64,000 nt of DNA, from contig NZ_CP050695.1 in NCBI RefSeq assembly GCF_012044895.1, positions 3,812,501-3,876,500 of the forward strand, given 5' to 3'. Below the pieces are notes generated by a model. That model did no database searches. It was not told where the DNA came from and saw nothing but the letters and a program-made list of their open reading frames with translations. Source of the DNA: Aquisalimonas sp. 2447 (GTDB lineage Bacteria > Pseudomonadota > Gammaproteobacteria > Nitrococcales > Aquisalimonadaceae). Position numbers and translations under genes: made by a program. Shown one piece after another: positions 3,281 to 7,360 of the stretch; position 1 is the stretch's first letter, and every line of letters starts with the position of its first letter.

Positions 3281-3355
3281 GTAGGCCGGACCTTCAGGTC
3301 CGCCTTTCCCCGACATGCAAGCCAAGGTGGCCCATCGGAGTCCGCAACGGTGGAC
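3281..3355. repeat. REPIN family A copy 1, left part (interrupted by introns)
   Basis: The first palindrome (3281-3304, core GGACCTTCAGGTCC) is intact. The second begins as GGTGGAC at 3349-3355 and is cut there; its other part resumes at 7344-7360. Joining the two pieces restores a 92-bp element with the same 44-bp spacing as the copy at 15285-15376. Confidence 0.8.
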
Positions 3356-5350
3356 GTCGGGTAGGCCGGCCGGTTACCCGGCCGGCCCCCCACAGATCCA
3401 CTCGTGCGGGTTTCCCGCAAGTGGCTCCTCGTGTGAGTGGCTTCGCTACGTGGCGCAGATCCTGGCCCGGGCGAGCGGGTAACACTCCAGGAACCGGGAG
3501 AACTCCGACCACGGGATCGCCGCCTTCTGCGAGCGCCGCGACAGCCATCGGTGCCAGGAGCGCATCGCCTGGGAGCGGACCTGGTCGATCGCTGCAAAGT
3601 TACCACGCACGCCGAAGTAGGCGTAGTGGCCCCGGAGTCTGCGGTTCAGGGCTTGCCACTGCTCAACCACGGGGTGATGCCGCATCACACAGCACCAACG
3701 ATCGATTGCATGCATGGCCCGGCGCAGCCGATCCCGCGCCGTCTTGCGCTTGACCACCCAGCGCCCTCGCCTCGACCGCCCCCAGTAGTGGGTGAAGCCG
3801 AGAAAATCGAAGGTCTCCGGGTGCGGTCCTCCGCCCGATCCGGGCCGGTCGAACCGCACAACCCGGGTCTTCTCCGGGTGGAGTTCCAGCCCGTAGCGCG
3901 CAAAACGCTTGGGCAGCACCTCCATCACCCGCCGGGCATCGCTCTCGCAGGCGAACACCAGCAGCGCATCGTCGGCAAAACGCACCAGGTGCGCCTCACC
4001 GCGCAACCGGGGCCGGACACTGTCCTCGAACCACGTATCCAGCACCTCGTGGAGGAAAATGTTGGCGAGCATCGGCGAGATCACCCCGCCCTGCGGGGTG
4101 CCCCGCCCGGGCTGGCGCCACTGCCCTTCCTCCAGCACGCCGGCGTTCAACCATTTGCCGATCAACCGAACCAGCACGCCGTCACGTACCCGCCGACGCA
4201 GCACCTCCCGCAACAGACCATGGTCGACCCGGTCAAAGAACTTGCGCACGTCAAGATCAATCACCCAGCCACCGCCCATCGCCATCAACGGCCGCCAGAC
4301 CGCCTGCAGCGCCTGGTGCGCCGAGCGTCCCAGGCGGAAGCCGTACGAGCCCTCGTGGAACTCCGGCTCGTAGACCGCCTCCAGCACCATCGCCACCGCC
4401 CGCTGGAGCACCTTGTCCTCAAACGTCGGAATGCCGAGCGCTCGGCGCTCGCTCCCGTCACCCTTGGGGATCGAGGTGCCCCGCACCGGCGGCGCCCGGT
4501 ACGCCCCGGACTTCGCCCGCTCCAGCAGCGAGCTCAGGTTCGCCTCAAGCTCCTCGCCGTAGGCGGCACCCGTGCGGCCATCAACGCCCGGCGCCCCGTC
4601 CTTGCGCGTGCGTCGATACGCCTCACGCAACCACGCCTCGTCAATGTGATGGGCCAACGTCAAAAGCGGCCTGTCCGGAAGACGCCGCGCCAGATCCGCT
4701 ATCTGTTGGCATCGCGTTGAGATGAGATCAGAGTCCAATGCCTCCGCCATCGGTCCCTCCAACAGCTCCACTCACACGGTCTCCCCTTCCCCTTCACCGG
4801 GTCCGCTGGGGCGCGTTCCCCGGCTGCTCCGGTACTATGGGAGACTCCGACTGCCTGCCGCCCGTCTGGCACCGCTCTGGCTGTCCTCGCAGCACCATAC
4901 CGCCGCAGCGCCCTCAGCCTTCGCTCCAGCAGCAGGAGGACGCTCCCACCACTGGCCCGGACTGCGGATCAGCGGTCGCCCGCACCGTCTACTTCTTAGG
5001 CGGAGACGACAGGCCCTCCCAGGTTCCTGGGGGACCCCAATGTGCCCATGCCCCGCTCTCGGACCCCGGCGGGCACACCACACCAGGCCTCTACAGTGCA
5101 GCGTTACTGCCTTCCGGTCTTCAGACACCGTCGGCACCCACAATGTCGCGGATTTCGGGGCTCAATCACGCAGCCTGGACACTCGCTGTCTACGCTTCAC
5201 CACAGCAGTTACCCACTGCAGCGCAAGACTCACTTCCGGCTGGTGGCCAACCTCTACCGGGCGGGCTCAACGGCCCGCTGGGTCCCTCTCGCAATTTCAT
5301 GGCCGCCTCCATGCCACCAATCCCAAGCGACCAGGCTTCGCCTGGCGCTC
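3356..5350 (-). mobile_element. Group II intron, downstream copy of a tandem pair
   Basis: A 1,995-nt element read on the minus strand. It begins GAGCGCC (complement of 5350) and ends CGAC (complement of 3356), giving the expected AY 3' end; the 5' end is a GAGCG variant of the GUGYG consensus. About 580 nt of folded 5' RNA precede the reverse-transcriptase ORF. Domain V is at 3395-3427 (minus): stem GAGCCACT with partner AGTGGATC, inner stem TGCGGG/CCCGCA, AAA loop, CG bulge, and AGC triad at its base. Domain VI follows as a 10-bp GC stem with a UA bulge that puts an A 7 nt from the 3' end. It directly abuts the second copy at 5351 without an intervening exon. The intron class was not determined. 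Confidence 0.85.
3446..4771 (-). CDS. ltrA: Group II intron reverse transcriptase/maturase (copy 1)
   Basis: A 441-aa intron-encoded protein made from within domain IV of the host intron. The reverse-transcriptase blocks are in order: [20 protein letters not shown] (RT2-3), DLDVRKFFD with Asp172, PQGGVISP at 226-233, and the catalytic FADD at 265-268 (a YADD variant). A C-terminal maturase region (HYAYFGV, then WHRWLSRRS) follows. No HNH endonuclease follows it, so retrohoming would rely on hairpin or replication-fork targets. Copy 1 differs from copy 2 at residue 147: FRLGRS here against FRPGRS there. The proline is very conserved in this enzyme family, so copy 1 may be weakened. The start chosen gives the full family length; ATG at 4750 is an alternative. 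Confidence 0.92.
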
Positions 5351-7343
5351 GTCGGTAGGCCGGCCGGTTACCCGGCCGGCCCCCACAGATCCACTCGTGC
5401 GGGTTTCCCGCAAGTGGCTCCTCGTGTGAGTGGCTTCGCTACGTGGCGCAGATCCTGGCCCGGGCGAGCGGGTAACACTCCAGGAACCGGGAGAACTCCG
5501 ACCACGGGATCGCCGCCTTCTGCGAGCGCCGCGACAGCCATCGGTGCCAGGAGCGCATCGCCTGGGAGCGGACCTGGTCGATCGCTGCAAAGTTACCACG
5601 CACGCCGAAGTAGGCGTAGTGGCCCCGGAGTCTGCGGTTCAGGGCTTGCCACTGCTCAACCACGGGGTGATGCCGCATCACACAGCACCAACGATCGATT
5701 GCATGCATGGCCCGGCGCAGCCGATCCCGCGCCGTCTTGCGCTTGACCACCCAGCGCCCTCGCCTCGACCGCCCCCAGTAGTGGGTGAAGCCGAGAAAAT
5801 CGAAGGTCTCCGGGTGCGGTCCTCCGCCCGATCCGGGCCGGTCGAACCGCACAACCCGGGTCTTCTCCGGGTGGAGTTCCAGCCCGTAGCGCGCAAAACG
5901 CTTGGGCAGCACCTCCATCACCCGCCGGGCATCGCTCTCGCAGGCGAACACCAGCAGCGCATCGTCGGCAAAACGCACCAGGTGCGCCTCACCGCGCAAC
6001 CGGGGCCGGACACTGTCCTCGAACCACGTATCCAGCACCTCGTGGAGGAAAATGTTGGCGAGCATCGGCGAGATCACCCCGCCCTGCGGGGTGCCCCGCC
6101 CGGGCTGGCGCCACTGCCCTTCCTCCAGCACGCCGGCGTTCAACCATTTGCCGATCAACCGAACCAGCACGCCGTCACGTACCCGCCGACGCAGCACCTC
6201 CCGCAACAGACCATGGTCGACCCGGTCAAAGAACTTGCGCACGTCAAGATCAATCACCCAGCCACCGCCCATCGCCATCAACGGCCGCCAGACCGCCTGC
6301 AGCGCCTGGTGCGCCGAGCGTCCCGGGCGGAAGCCGTACGAGCCCTCGTGGAACTCCGGCTCGTAGACCGCCTCCAGCACCATCGCCACCGCCCGCTGGA
6401 GCACCTTGTCCTCAAACGTCGGAATGCCGAGCGCTCGGCGCTCGCTCCCGTCACCCTTGGGGATCGAGGTGCCCCGCACCGGCGGCGCCCGGTACGCCCC
6501 GGACTTCGCCCGCTCCAGCAGCGAGCTCAGGTTCGCCTCAAGCTCCTCGCCGTAGGCGGCACCCGTGCGACCATCAACGCCCGGCGCCCCGTCCTTGCGC
6601 GTGCGTCGATACGCCTCACGCAACCACGCCTCGTCAATGTGATGGGCCAACGTCAAAAGCGGCCTGTCCGGAAGACGCCGCGCCAGATCCGCTATCTGTT
6701 GGCATCGCGTTGAGATGAGATCAGAGTCCAATGCCTCCGCCATCGGTCCCTCCAACAGCTCCACTCACACGGTCTCCCCTTCCCCTTCACCGGGTCCGCT
6801 GGGGCGCGTTCCCCGGCTGCTCCGGTACTATGGGAGACTCCGACTGCCTGCCGCCCGTCTGGCACCGCTCTGGCTGTCCTCGCAGCACCATACCGCCGCA
6901 GCGCCCTCAGCCTTCGCTCCAGCAGCAGGAGGACGCTCCCACCACTGGCCCGGACTGCGGATCAGCGGTCGCCCGCACCGTCTACTTCTTAGGCGGAGAC
7001 GACAGGCCCTCCCAGGTTCCTGGGGGACCCCAATGTGCCCATGCCCCGCTCTCGGACCCCGGCGGGCACACCACACCAGGCCTCTACAGTGCAGCGTTAC
7101 TGCCTTCCGGTCTTCAGACACCGTCGGCACCCACAATGTCGCGGATTTCGGGGCTCAATCACGCAGCCTGGACACTCGCTGTCTACGCTTCACCACAGCA
7201 GTTACCCACTGCAGCGCAAGACTCGCTTCCGGCTGGTGGCCAACCTCTACCGGGCGGGCTCAACGGCCCGCTGGGTCCCTCTCGCAATTTCATGGCCGCC
7301 TCCATGCCACCAATCCCAAGCGACCAGGCTTCGCCTGGCGCTC
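5351..7343 (-). mobile_element. Group II intron, upstream copy of a tandem pair
   Basis: A 1,993-nt element almost identical to the copy at 3356-5350. It lies first in the direction of intron transcription. Its 5' end (complement of 7343) follows the exon sequence GGACCTTCAG, half of a REPIN palindrome. A CTGAAG on the intron strand at 7112-7117, about 226 nt into the intron, is perfectly complementary to this exon end and is the likely EBS1. Domain V is the same as in copy 1. Two single-base length differences from copy 1 fall on opposite sides of the outer domain VI stem (one fewer G and one fewer C). Confidence 0.85.
5439..6764 (-). CDS. ltrA: Group II intron reverse transcriptase/maturase (copy 2)
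   Basis: A 441-aa reverse transcriptase/maturase, the twin of the protein encoded at 3446-4771. It carries the conserved FRPGRS segment at residues 145-150, PQGGV at 226-230 and FADD at 265-268, and so looks fully equipped for reverse transcription. There is no C-terminal HNH domain. It would bind its own intron RNA to promote splicing and then act in retrohoming. Outside residue 147 I see only a silent change between the two ORFs, so the duplication is recent or kept identical by gene conversion. Confidence 0.92.
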
Positions 7344-7360
7344 CTGAAGGTCCACCCTAC
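7344..7360. repeat. REPIN family A copy 1, right part (after intron insertion)
   Basis: The sequence CTGAAGGTCCACCCTAC completes the palindrome begun as GGTGGAC at 3349-3355. The insertion point lies between the inner loop and one arm of the palindrome. One base (c) is ambiguous at the junction, so the insertion could be placed 1 nt to the left. Confidence 0.8.

Follow-up and report, generated by a model that had tools for sequence, protein, structure and literature searches.

A IIB-like group II intron without an endonuclease domain and REP/REPIN repeats as its probable homing sites in Aquisalimonas sp. 2447

The genome of Aquisalimonas sp. 2447, a single contig of 3.97 Mb (G000:C1), contains 15 full-length copies of a group II intron and one internally deleted, decayed remnant, and all 13 of the sites that these occupy across the whole genome lie in the same REP. 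Comparative sequence evidence gives good support to a IIB-like intron without an endonuclease that homes to REP/REPIN, takes an orientation dependent on replication and re-inserts beside itself. What sets it apart from the closest known systems is REP/REPIN as the dedicated target of an intron, together with exon-less tandems. Taken as a whole, we consider it very probable that this is a mobile element which uses pre-existing REP/REPIN repeats as its homing site, enters by way of the lagging strand and can re-insert where a copy already resides.

Two abutting introns within one REPIN

The window, a stretch of 64,000 nucleotides (positions 3,812,501 to 3,876,500 of contig NZ_CP050695.1), holds two of these copies. 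The initial annotation had placed two near-identical, abutting introns at 3356-5350 and 5351-7343, and these coordinates proved exact; their strand, which it had left unstated, is minus. Copy A (7343..5351, minus; 1,993 nt; GAGCG...CTACCGAC) is thus the 5' member of the tandem and copy B (5350..3356, minus; 1,995 nt; GAGCG...CTACCCGAC) the 3' member. In the assembled sequence the end of copy A, CTACCGAC, directly meets the start of copy B, GAGCGCCAGG, with zero exon bases between the two.

The tandem interrupts one half of a REPIN of about 92 bp. Its 5' exon (7344..7360, minus; GTAGGGTGGACCTTCAG) is the first part of the split REP half and includes IBS2 (GTGGA, 7351-7355, minus) and IBS1 (CTTCAG, 7344-7349, minus), while the 3' exon (3349..3355, minus; GTCCACC) is the 3' arm of the same half, with the G at +1 as the IBS3 position. 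The second half of the REPIN (3281..3304, plus; GTAGGCCGGACCTTCAGGTCCGCC) is intact and inverted relative to the split half. Joining the minus-strand flanks as ...CCGTAGGGTGGACCTTCAG/GTCCACC...GGCGGACCTGAAGGTCCGGCCTAC (or, from the start of the 5' exon, GTAGGGTGGACCTTCAG/GTCCACC...GGCGGACCTGAAGGTCCGGCCTAC), where the slash marks the join, gives a normal two-half REPIN, and the rejoined element folds much better than its shuffled versions do (z = -6). Matches to the core REP number 16 in the window, as against 0.7 expected. The repeat displays the characters of REP/REPIN sequences, namely a 5' GTAG with a hairpin, two inverted halves, many extragenic copies and a RAYT in the genome, and exact REP halves number 188 in the host genome. 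A RAYT-like Y1 transposase (Y1_Tnp) encoded at 2,653,728 (L078, about 1432-1998) is accompanied by several REP halves at distances of up to about 0.9 kb and may be the cognate REP transposase; a second RAYT-like Y1 transposase is located at 3606 kb (L077, 1327-1812).

The catalytic RNA domains of a group II intron (D1-D4 core, DV/DVI) were recognised in both copies through Rfam matches. RF02005 matched A at 153.1 bits and B at 149.5 bits (gathering score 49), and RF00029 matched B at 42.6 bits, which passes its gathering score of 40, and A at 30.6 bits, which is below it. Each copy encodes an intact reverse transcriptase (RT)/maturase of 441 aa (5439..6764 in copy A and 3446..4771 in copy B, both minus), that of copy A matching RVT_1 and TIGR04416 (341 bits, cut-off 300). 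No domain was found past the RT/maturase and H-N-H is absent, a trait of the endonuclease-less classes C, D, E, F and g. The 3' end of the intron, AC, fits the AY rule of group II introns, and 14 of the 15 full copies begin with GAGCG, the remaining one having lost that end. Copies in a genus-mate (G004) also start with GAGCG, position 2 of the customary GUGYG being altered in the copies of both genomes, and relatives start with GTGCG.

Domain V starts with GGAGCC and thus has the AGC catalytic triad of group IIB (CGC in IIC), and a 6-bp EBS1-IBS1, based on covariation, is accompanied by an EBS2-IBS2, based on statistics, again as in group IIB. In contrast, the group IIC/class C combination of a short IBS1, no EBS2 and a hairpin upstream of the site was not seen in this intron, the site of which lies inside the palindrome. 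The length of IBS1 (6 bp), the presence of an EBS2 and the AGC triad of domain V all speak against class IIC and rule out a class C/terminator reading, and on these sequence characters the intron is IIB-like, not class C. An analogy to hairpin-guided class C introns, drawn in the initial annotation, therefore fails, since EBS1 and EBS2 base-pair with the REP and most relatives' sites have no hairpin.

Insertion sites and target recognition

The exact 5' junction, GTAGGGYGGAYCTTCAG followed directly by GAGCG, is kept at 12 of the 13 sites. At the 13th (1.190 Mb; L012, 1189.9 kb) it has been lost via a small deletion that leaves GTAGGGTGGACCACGCGAAG, and the REP is still recognisable. The assembly of G004 breaks at the intron, and junctions were counted there, eight in all; the five 5' junctions (5/5) and three 3' junctions (3/3) found agree with the REP junction. 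Mapping of all copies thus placed each at the same REP position, at 13/13 sites here and at 8/8 junctions in the second species, which bears out the earlier suggestion that REPINs are a dispersed landing site for this intron. The G004 introns lie in REPs on contigs C50, C109, C318, C398, C400, C404, C425 and C430, and at least one of these sites, that on C50, matches the 1.196-Mb site of the host genome, which is thus either common to both species or was hit twice.

Intact RT frames were found only in window copies A and B and in the 2.659-Mb copy. With the RT broken in 12 of the 15 copies, the family may be little active at present or may depend on activity provided in trans. Several frameshifts are common to four to eight copies, and some sit in homopolymers; the sharing would be compatible with a spread of RT-less copies in trans, with recurrent sequencing error as another possible source.

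Relatives with 40-60% RT identity, in each of which the 5' exon differs, were aligned to locate the exon-binding segments. One domain I loop pairs with each relative's own 5' exon, with EBS1 pairing at position 227 reaching 0.958 of perfect across 11 introns, as against a maximum of 0.609 with shuffled exons. This covariation among relatives demonstrates the pairing of EBS1, CUGAAG (intron position 227-232; 7112..7117 in copy A and 5119..5124 in copy B, both minus), with the REP loop CTTCAG. Right after a conserved CGAAA, another segment pairs with the more upstream 5' exon above shuffles (permutation p = 0.002), and does so clearly in just about half of the relatives. These statistics lend moderate support to a putative EBS2, UCCGC (intron position 199-203; 7141..7145, minus, in copy A), that would pair with GYGGA of the REP 5' arm. 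The combined IBS2 and IBS1 pattern has 229 matches in the genome as against 13 for the reversed control pattern, and CTTCAG alone has approximately 2,000 occurrences, about 12% of them in REPs (from a 200-kb sample). With EBS1 and EBS2 both pairing with the REP, about 94% of matching targets would be supplied by REPs, and ordinary IIB-type pairing would thus explain why the intron lands there. In the mechanism that we propose, EBS1 would bind the REP loop and EBS2 the REP 5' arm, and reverse splicing would take place between CTTCAG and G, immediately ahead of the 3' arm.

In an unlikely alternative, the feature recognised would be the structure of the REP hairpin, extruded on the single-stranded lagging-strand template, much as class C introns recognise hairpins of terminators or attC, with EBS1 kissing the exact 6-nt loop CTTCAG. 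IBS1 does coincide with the loop to the base, the two 7-bp arms leaving just these six bases unpaired, the REPIN folds much better than its shuffles, the lagging-strand route that we infer would expose single strands, and one relative (L092) likewise sits within a strong hairpin. However, the 5' arm is the partner of EBS2 and could not be folded into a hairpin at the same time, most relatives' sites are without a comparable hairpin, and the sequence match already accounts for the sites. Furthermore, after a first insertion the 3' arm is some 2 kb off, and yet the tandem insertion happened. Sequence pairing, as predicted from the intron and its relatives, is thus sufficient to account for the REP sites, and hairpin recognition is unneeded for the data. 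If the hairpin were recognised, REPs would represent a fourth group II target type beside linear homing sites, terminators and attC, and structure targeting would occur in a IIB-like, not a IIC, lineage. The relative in question, from a Thermoanaerobaculia MAG (about 3367-5426), has its intron inside the 5' arm of the hairpin (CCTTCT/CCCCCAGC...GCTGGGGGAGAAGG, the slash marking the insertion) and is the sole clear hairpin case among the relatives examined.

Orientation relative to replication

In the host genome dnaA lies at base 16, and the GC skew changes from positive to negative between 2.1 and 2.3 Mb. A dif-like site was sought with the E. coli consensus and not found, and the terminus was therefore placed by GC skew. 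Between 0.14 and 1.39 Mb the intron is on the plus strand at every site (6/6), and between 2.42 and 3.95 Mb it is on the minus strand at every site (7/7), so that 13/13 sites follow the direction of replication (two-sided sign test, 2.4e-4). No such strand bias is seen among exact empty REP halves, at 25/33 in the right replichore and 67/63 in the left. The picture of insertion given in the initial annotation stands, but it had missed this uniform orientation with respect to replication, as well as two further tandems and the likely reason for tandems, which are described below.

In the orientation taken by every copy, the target of reverse splicing would be the lagging-strand template, as in RmInt1, an endonuclease-less intron with a reported lagging-strand preference (PMC8914252, PMC5894124). 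An RT without an endonuclease would probably depend on insertion into this template. The intron would probably enter where the lagging-strand template is single-stranded, at replication forks, with nascent lagging-strand DNA probably serving as the primer, and a uniform orientation would be the outcome. As a REPIN carries the target once per direction, one half is always on the right strand.

The uniform orientation could instead be the product of selection for co-transcription with genes, whose direction tends to be that of the fork, rather than of lagging-strand insertion, and the upstream gene is indeed co-oriented with the intron at about 8-9 of the 13 sites. At four of the 13, however, the upstream gene opposes the intron and the direction of the intron still tracks replication, and a bias of 13/13 exceeds that of gene orientation. 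We thus regard selection as quite unlikely to be the explanation; it could contribute to the orientation alongside insertion into the lagging-strand template.

Tandems, empty sites and known systems

Exon-less tandems are present at REPs at three of the 13 sites, the window and two others at 2.416 Mb and 3.348 Mb (G000:C1 2415837-2419814 and 3348195-3350500; L014-L017 and L004). In the 3.348-Mb tandem the 5' member is a full copy and the 3' member the decayed, internally deleted remnant, 91-97% identical, and the 3' end of the remnant resembles the G004 version, which argues that the 3' copy is the older there. The order of age is clear in this one of the three tandems, the 2.416-Mb pair being uninformative. 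In the window, the copy alignment of A and B revealed three substitutions and two one-base indels, and the pair is thus not a single sequence assembled twice. Copy A matches the 2.659-Mb copy without a single substitution and differs from B by three, and thus is not a local duplicate of B.

The tandems are best explained, as far as can be inferred from these sequences, by re-insertion at the 5' junction. Insertion would leave a complete 5' exon, with the first base of the intron, G, replacing the G of the REP arm. Since IBS2 and IBS1 are left intact, and REP arm and intron both begin with G, the 5' junction would stay a target, and if the site were hit again the newcomer would land 5' of the resident to give an exon-less tandem. 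Insertion at the 3' junction is disfavoured as a route to tandems, as the 3' end of the intron, CTACCCGAC, is unlike IBS1 and insertion there would be unexpected. The exon-intron junction, when analysed for REP-like refolding, gave no such hairpin, and the resemblance between GAGCGCC and GTCCGCC is therefore not proposed as a cause.

A local DNA duplication or an assembly duplication, in place of two insertions, appears highly improbable. While assemblies are notoriously prone to error at near-identical copies, the substitutions and indels that separate A from B, the match of A to the 2.659-Mb copy without a substitution, a junction exact to the base and the occurrence of three tandems, one with a decayed partner, all argue against duplication. 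An assembly duplication in particular is unlikely, given the copy-specific substitutions and the three tandems. Two group II RT genes on a Bradyrhizobium plasmid (L053; 3073-4314 and 4875-6002) run in the same direction approximately 560 bp apart and are possibly another tandem or nested pair.

Contig C113 of G004 carries an empty REPIN (GTAGGGCGGACCTTCAGGTCCGCC...CGGCGGACCTGAAGGTCCGCCCTAC) between the same two convergent genes as the window locus. This allele and the join of the window flanks together confirm the earlier claim that the intron pair splits a REPIN and that its joined flanks rebuild a normal element. In a further genus-mate, G003, the REP was matched 82 times in the forward and 85 times in the reverse direction, and the intron, when looked for there, was not detected despite the presence of >100 REPs; most REPs of the host genome are likewise without any intron. 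The empty REPIN in G004 and the intron-free REPs of G003 indicate that the REP was there before the intron. The notion that introns invaded an IS-like element, with the REP as the intron's own cargo or end sequence, would fit the REP sequence at both ends of every copy, but is refuted by the empty orthologous REPIN and by the intron-free REPs of G003 and the host.

RmInt1 and RmInt2 of Sinorhizobium meliloti (class D, IIB3) share with the present intron a IIB-like RNA, an RT without an endonuclease, multiple copies, homing to a dispersed mobile repeat and a lagging-strand bias (PMC5894124, PMC8914252). RmInt2 is reported to use both inverted repeats of ISRm17, one target always being on the lagging template (PMC5894124), which is the same logic as that of the two inverted REP halves here. 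In contrast, the targets described for RmInt1 and RmInt2 are transposon sequences, not REP/REPIN, and exon-less tandems were not found for them in the available portions of these reports (PMC5894124, PMC8914252). The S. meliloti RTs share only about 44% identity with the RT described here, which may be of the D, E or F type by its ORF. Class C/IIC introns, found at terminators and attC, also have no endonuclease and insert at inverted repeats; they lack an EBS2, have an IBS1 of 3-4 bp that follows a hairpin, and carry a CGC triad (PMC4424553, PMC7923331), whereas the present intron has an IBS1 of 6 bp, an EBS2 and an AGC triad and inserts within the palindrome. The class E IIB introns in the attC array of Halorhodospira halochloris are likewise bacterial IIB introns near palindromic elements, but these are truncated fragments, at attC rather than REP and without a genome-wide rule (PMC7923331).

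Mobile elements confined to REP sequences, among them ISPa11, ISPpu9 and ISPpu10, are known (PMC1525189); these are DNA transposons, in contrast to the RNA-guided retroelement described here. A table in the same source places two of the nine group II introns (22%) of Pseudomonas putida KT2440 at REPs (PMC1525189). That part of the source gives no target mechanism, whereas here 13/13 sites and 8/8 junctions go together with matched EBS1 and EBS2. We found no report of a REP-dedicated intron or of exon-less tandems in REPs in the open-access literature, the nearest being this P. putida KT2440 table line.

REPINs multiplied by a RAYT would thus offer an RNA-guided retroelement a ready-made, strand-symmetric set of >200 homing sites, linking two common repeat systems in such a way that the intron can multiply at REPs and not elsewhere in the genome. 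The strand rule, complete across the sites, is evidence from a natural genome that an intron without an endonuclease inserts by way of the lagging strand, and the tandems suggest that insertion does not necessarily spend a group II homing site, which would provide a simple route to intron arrays.
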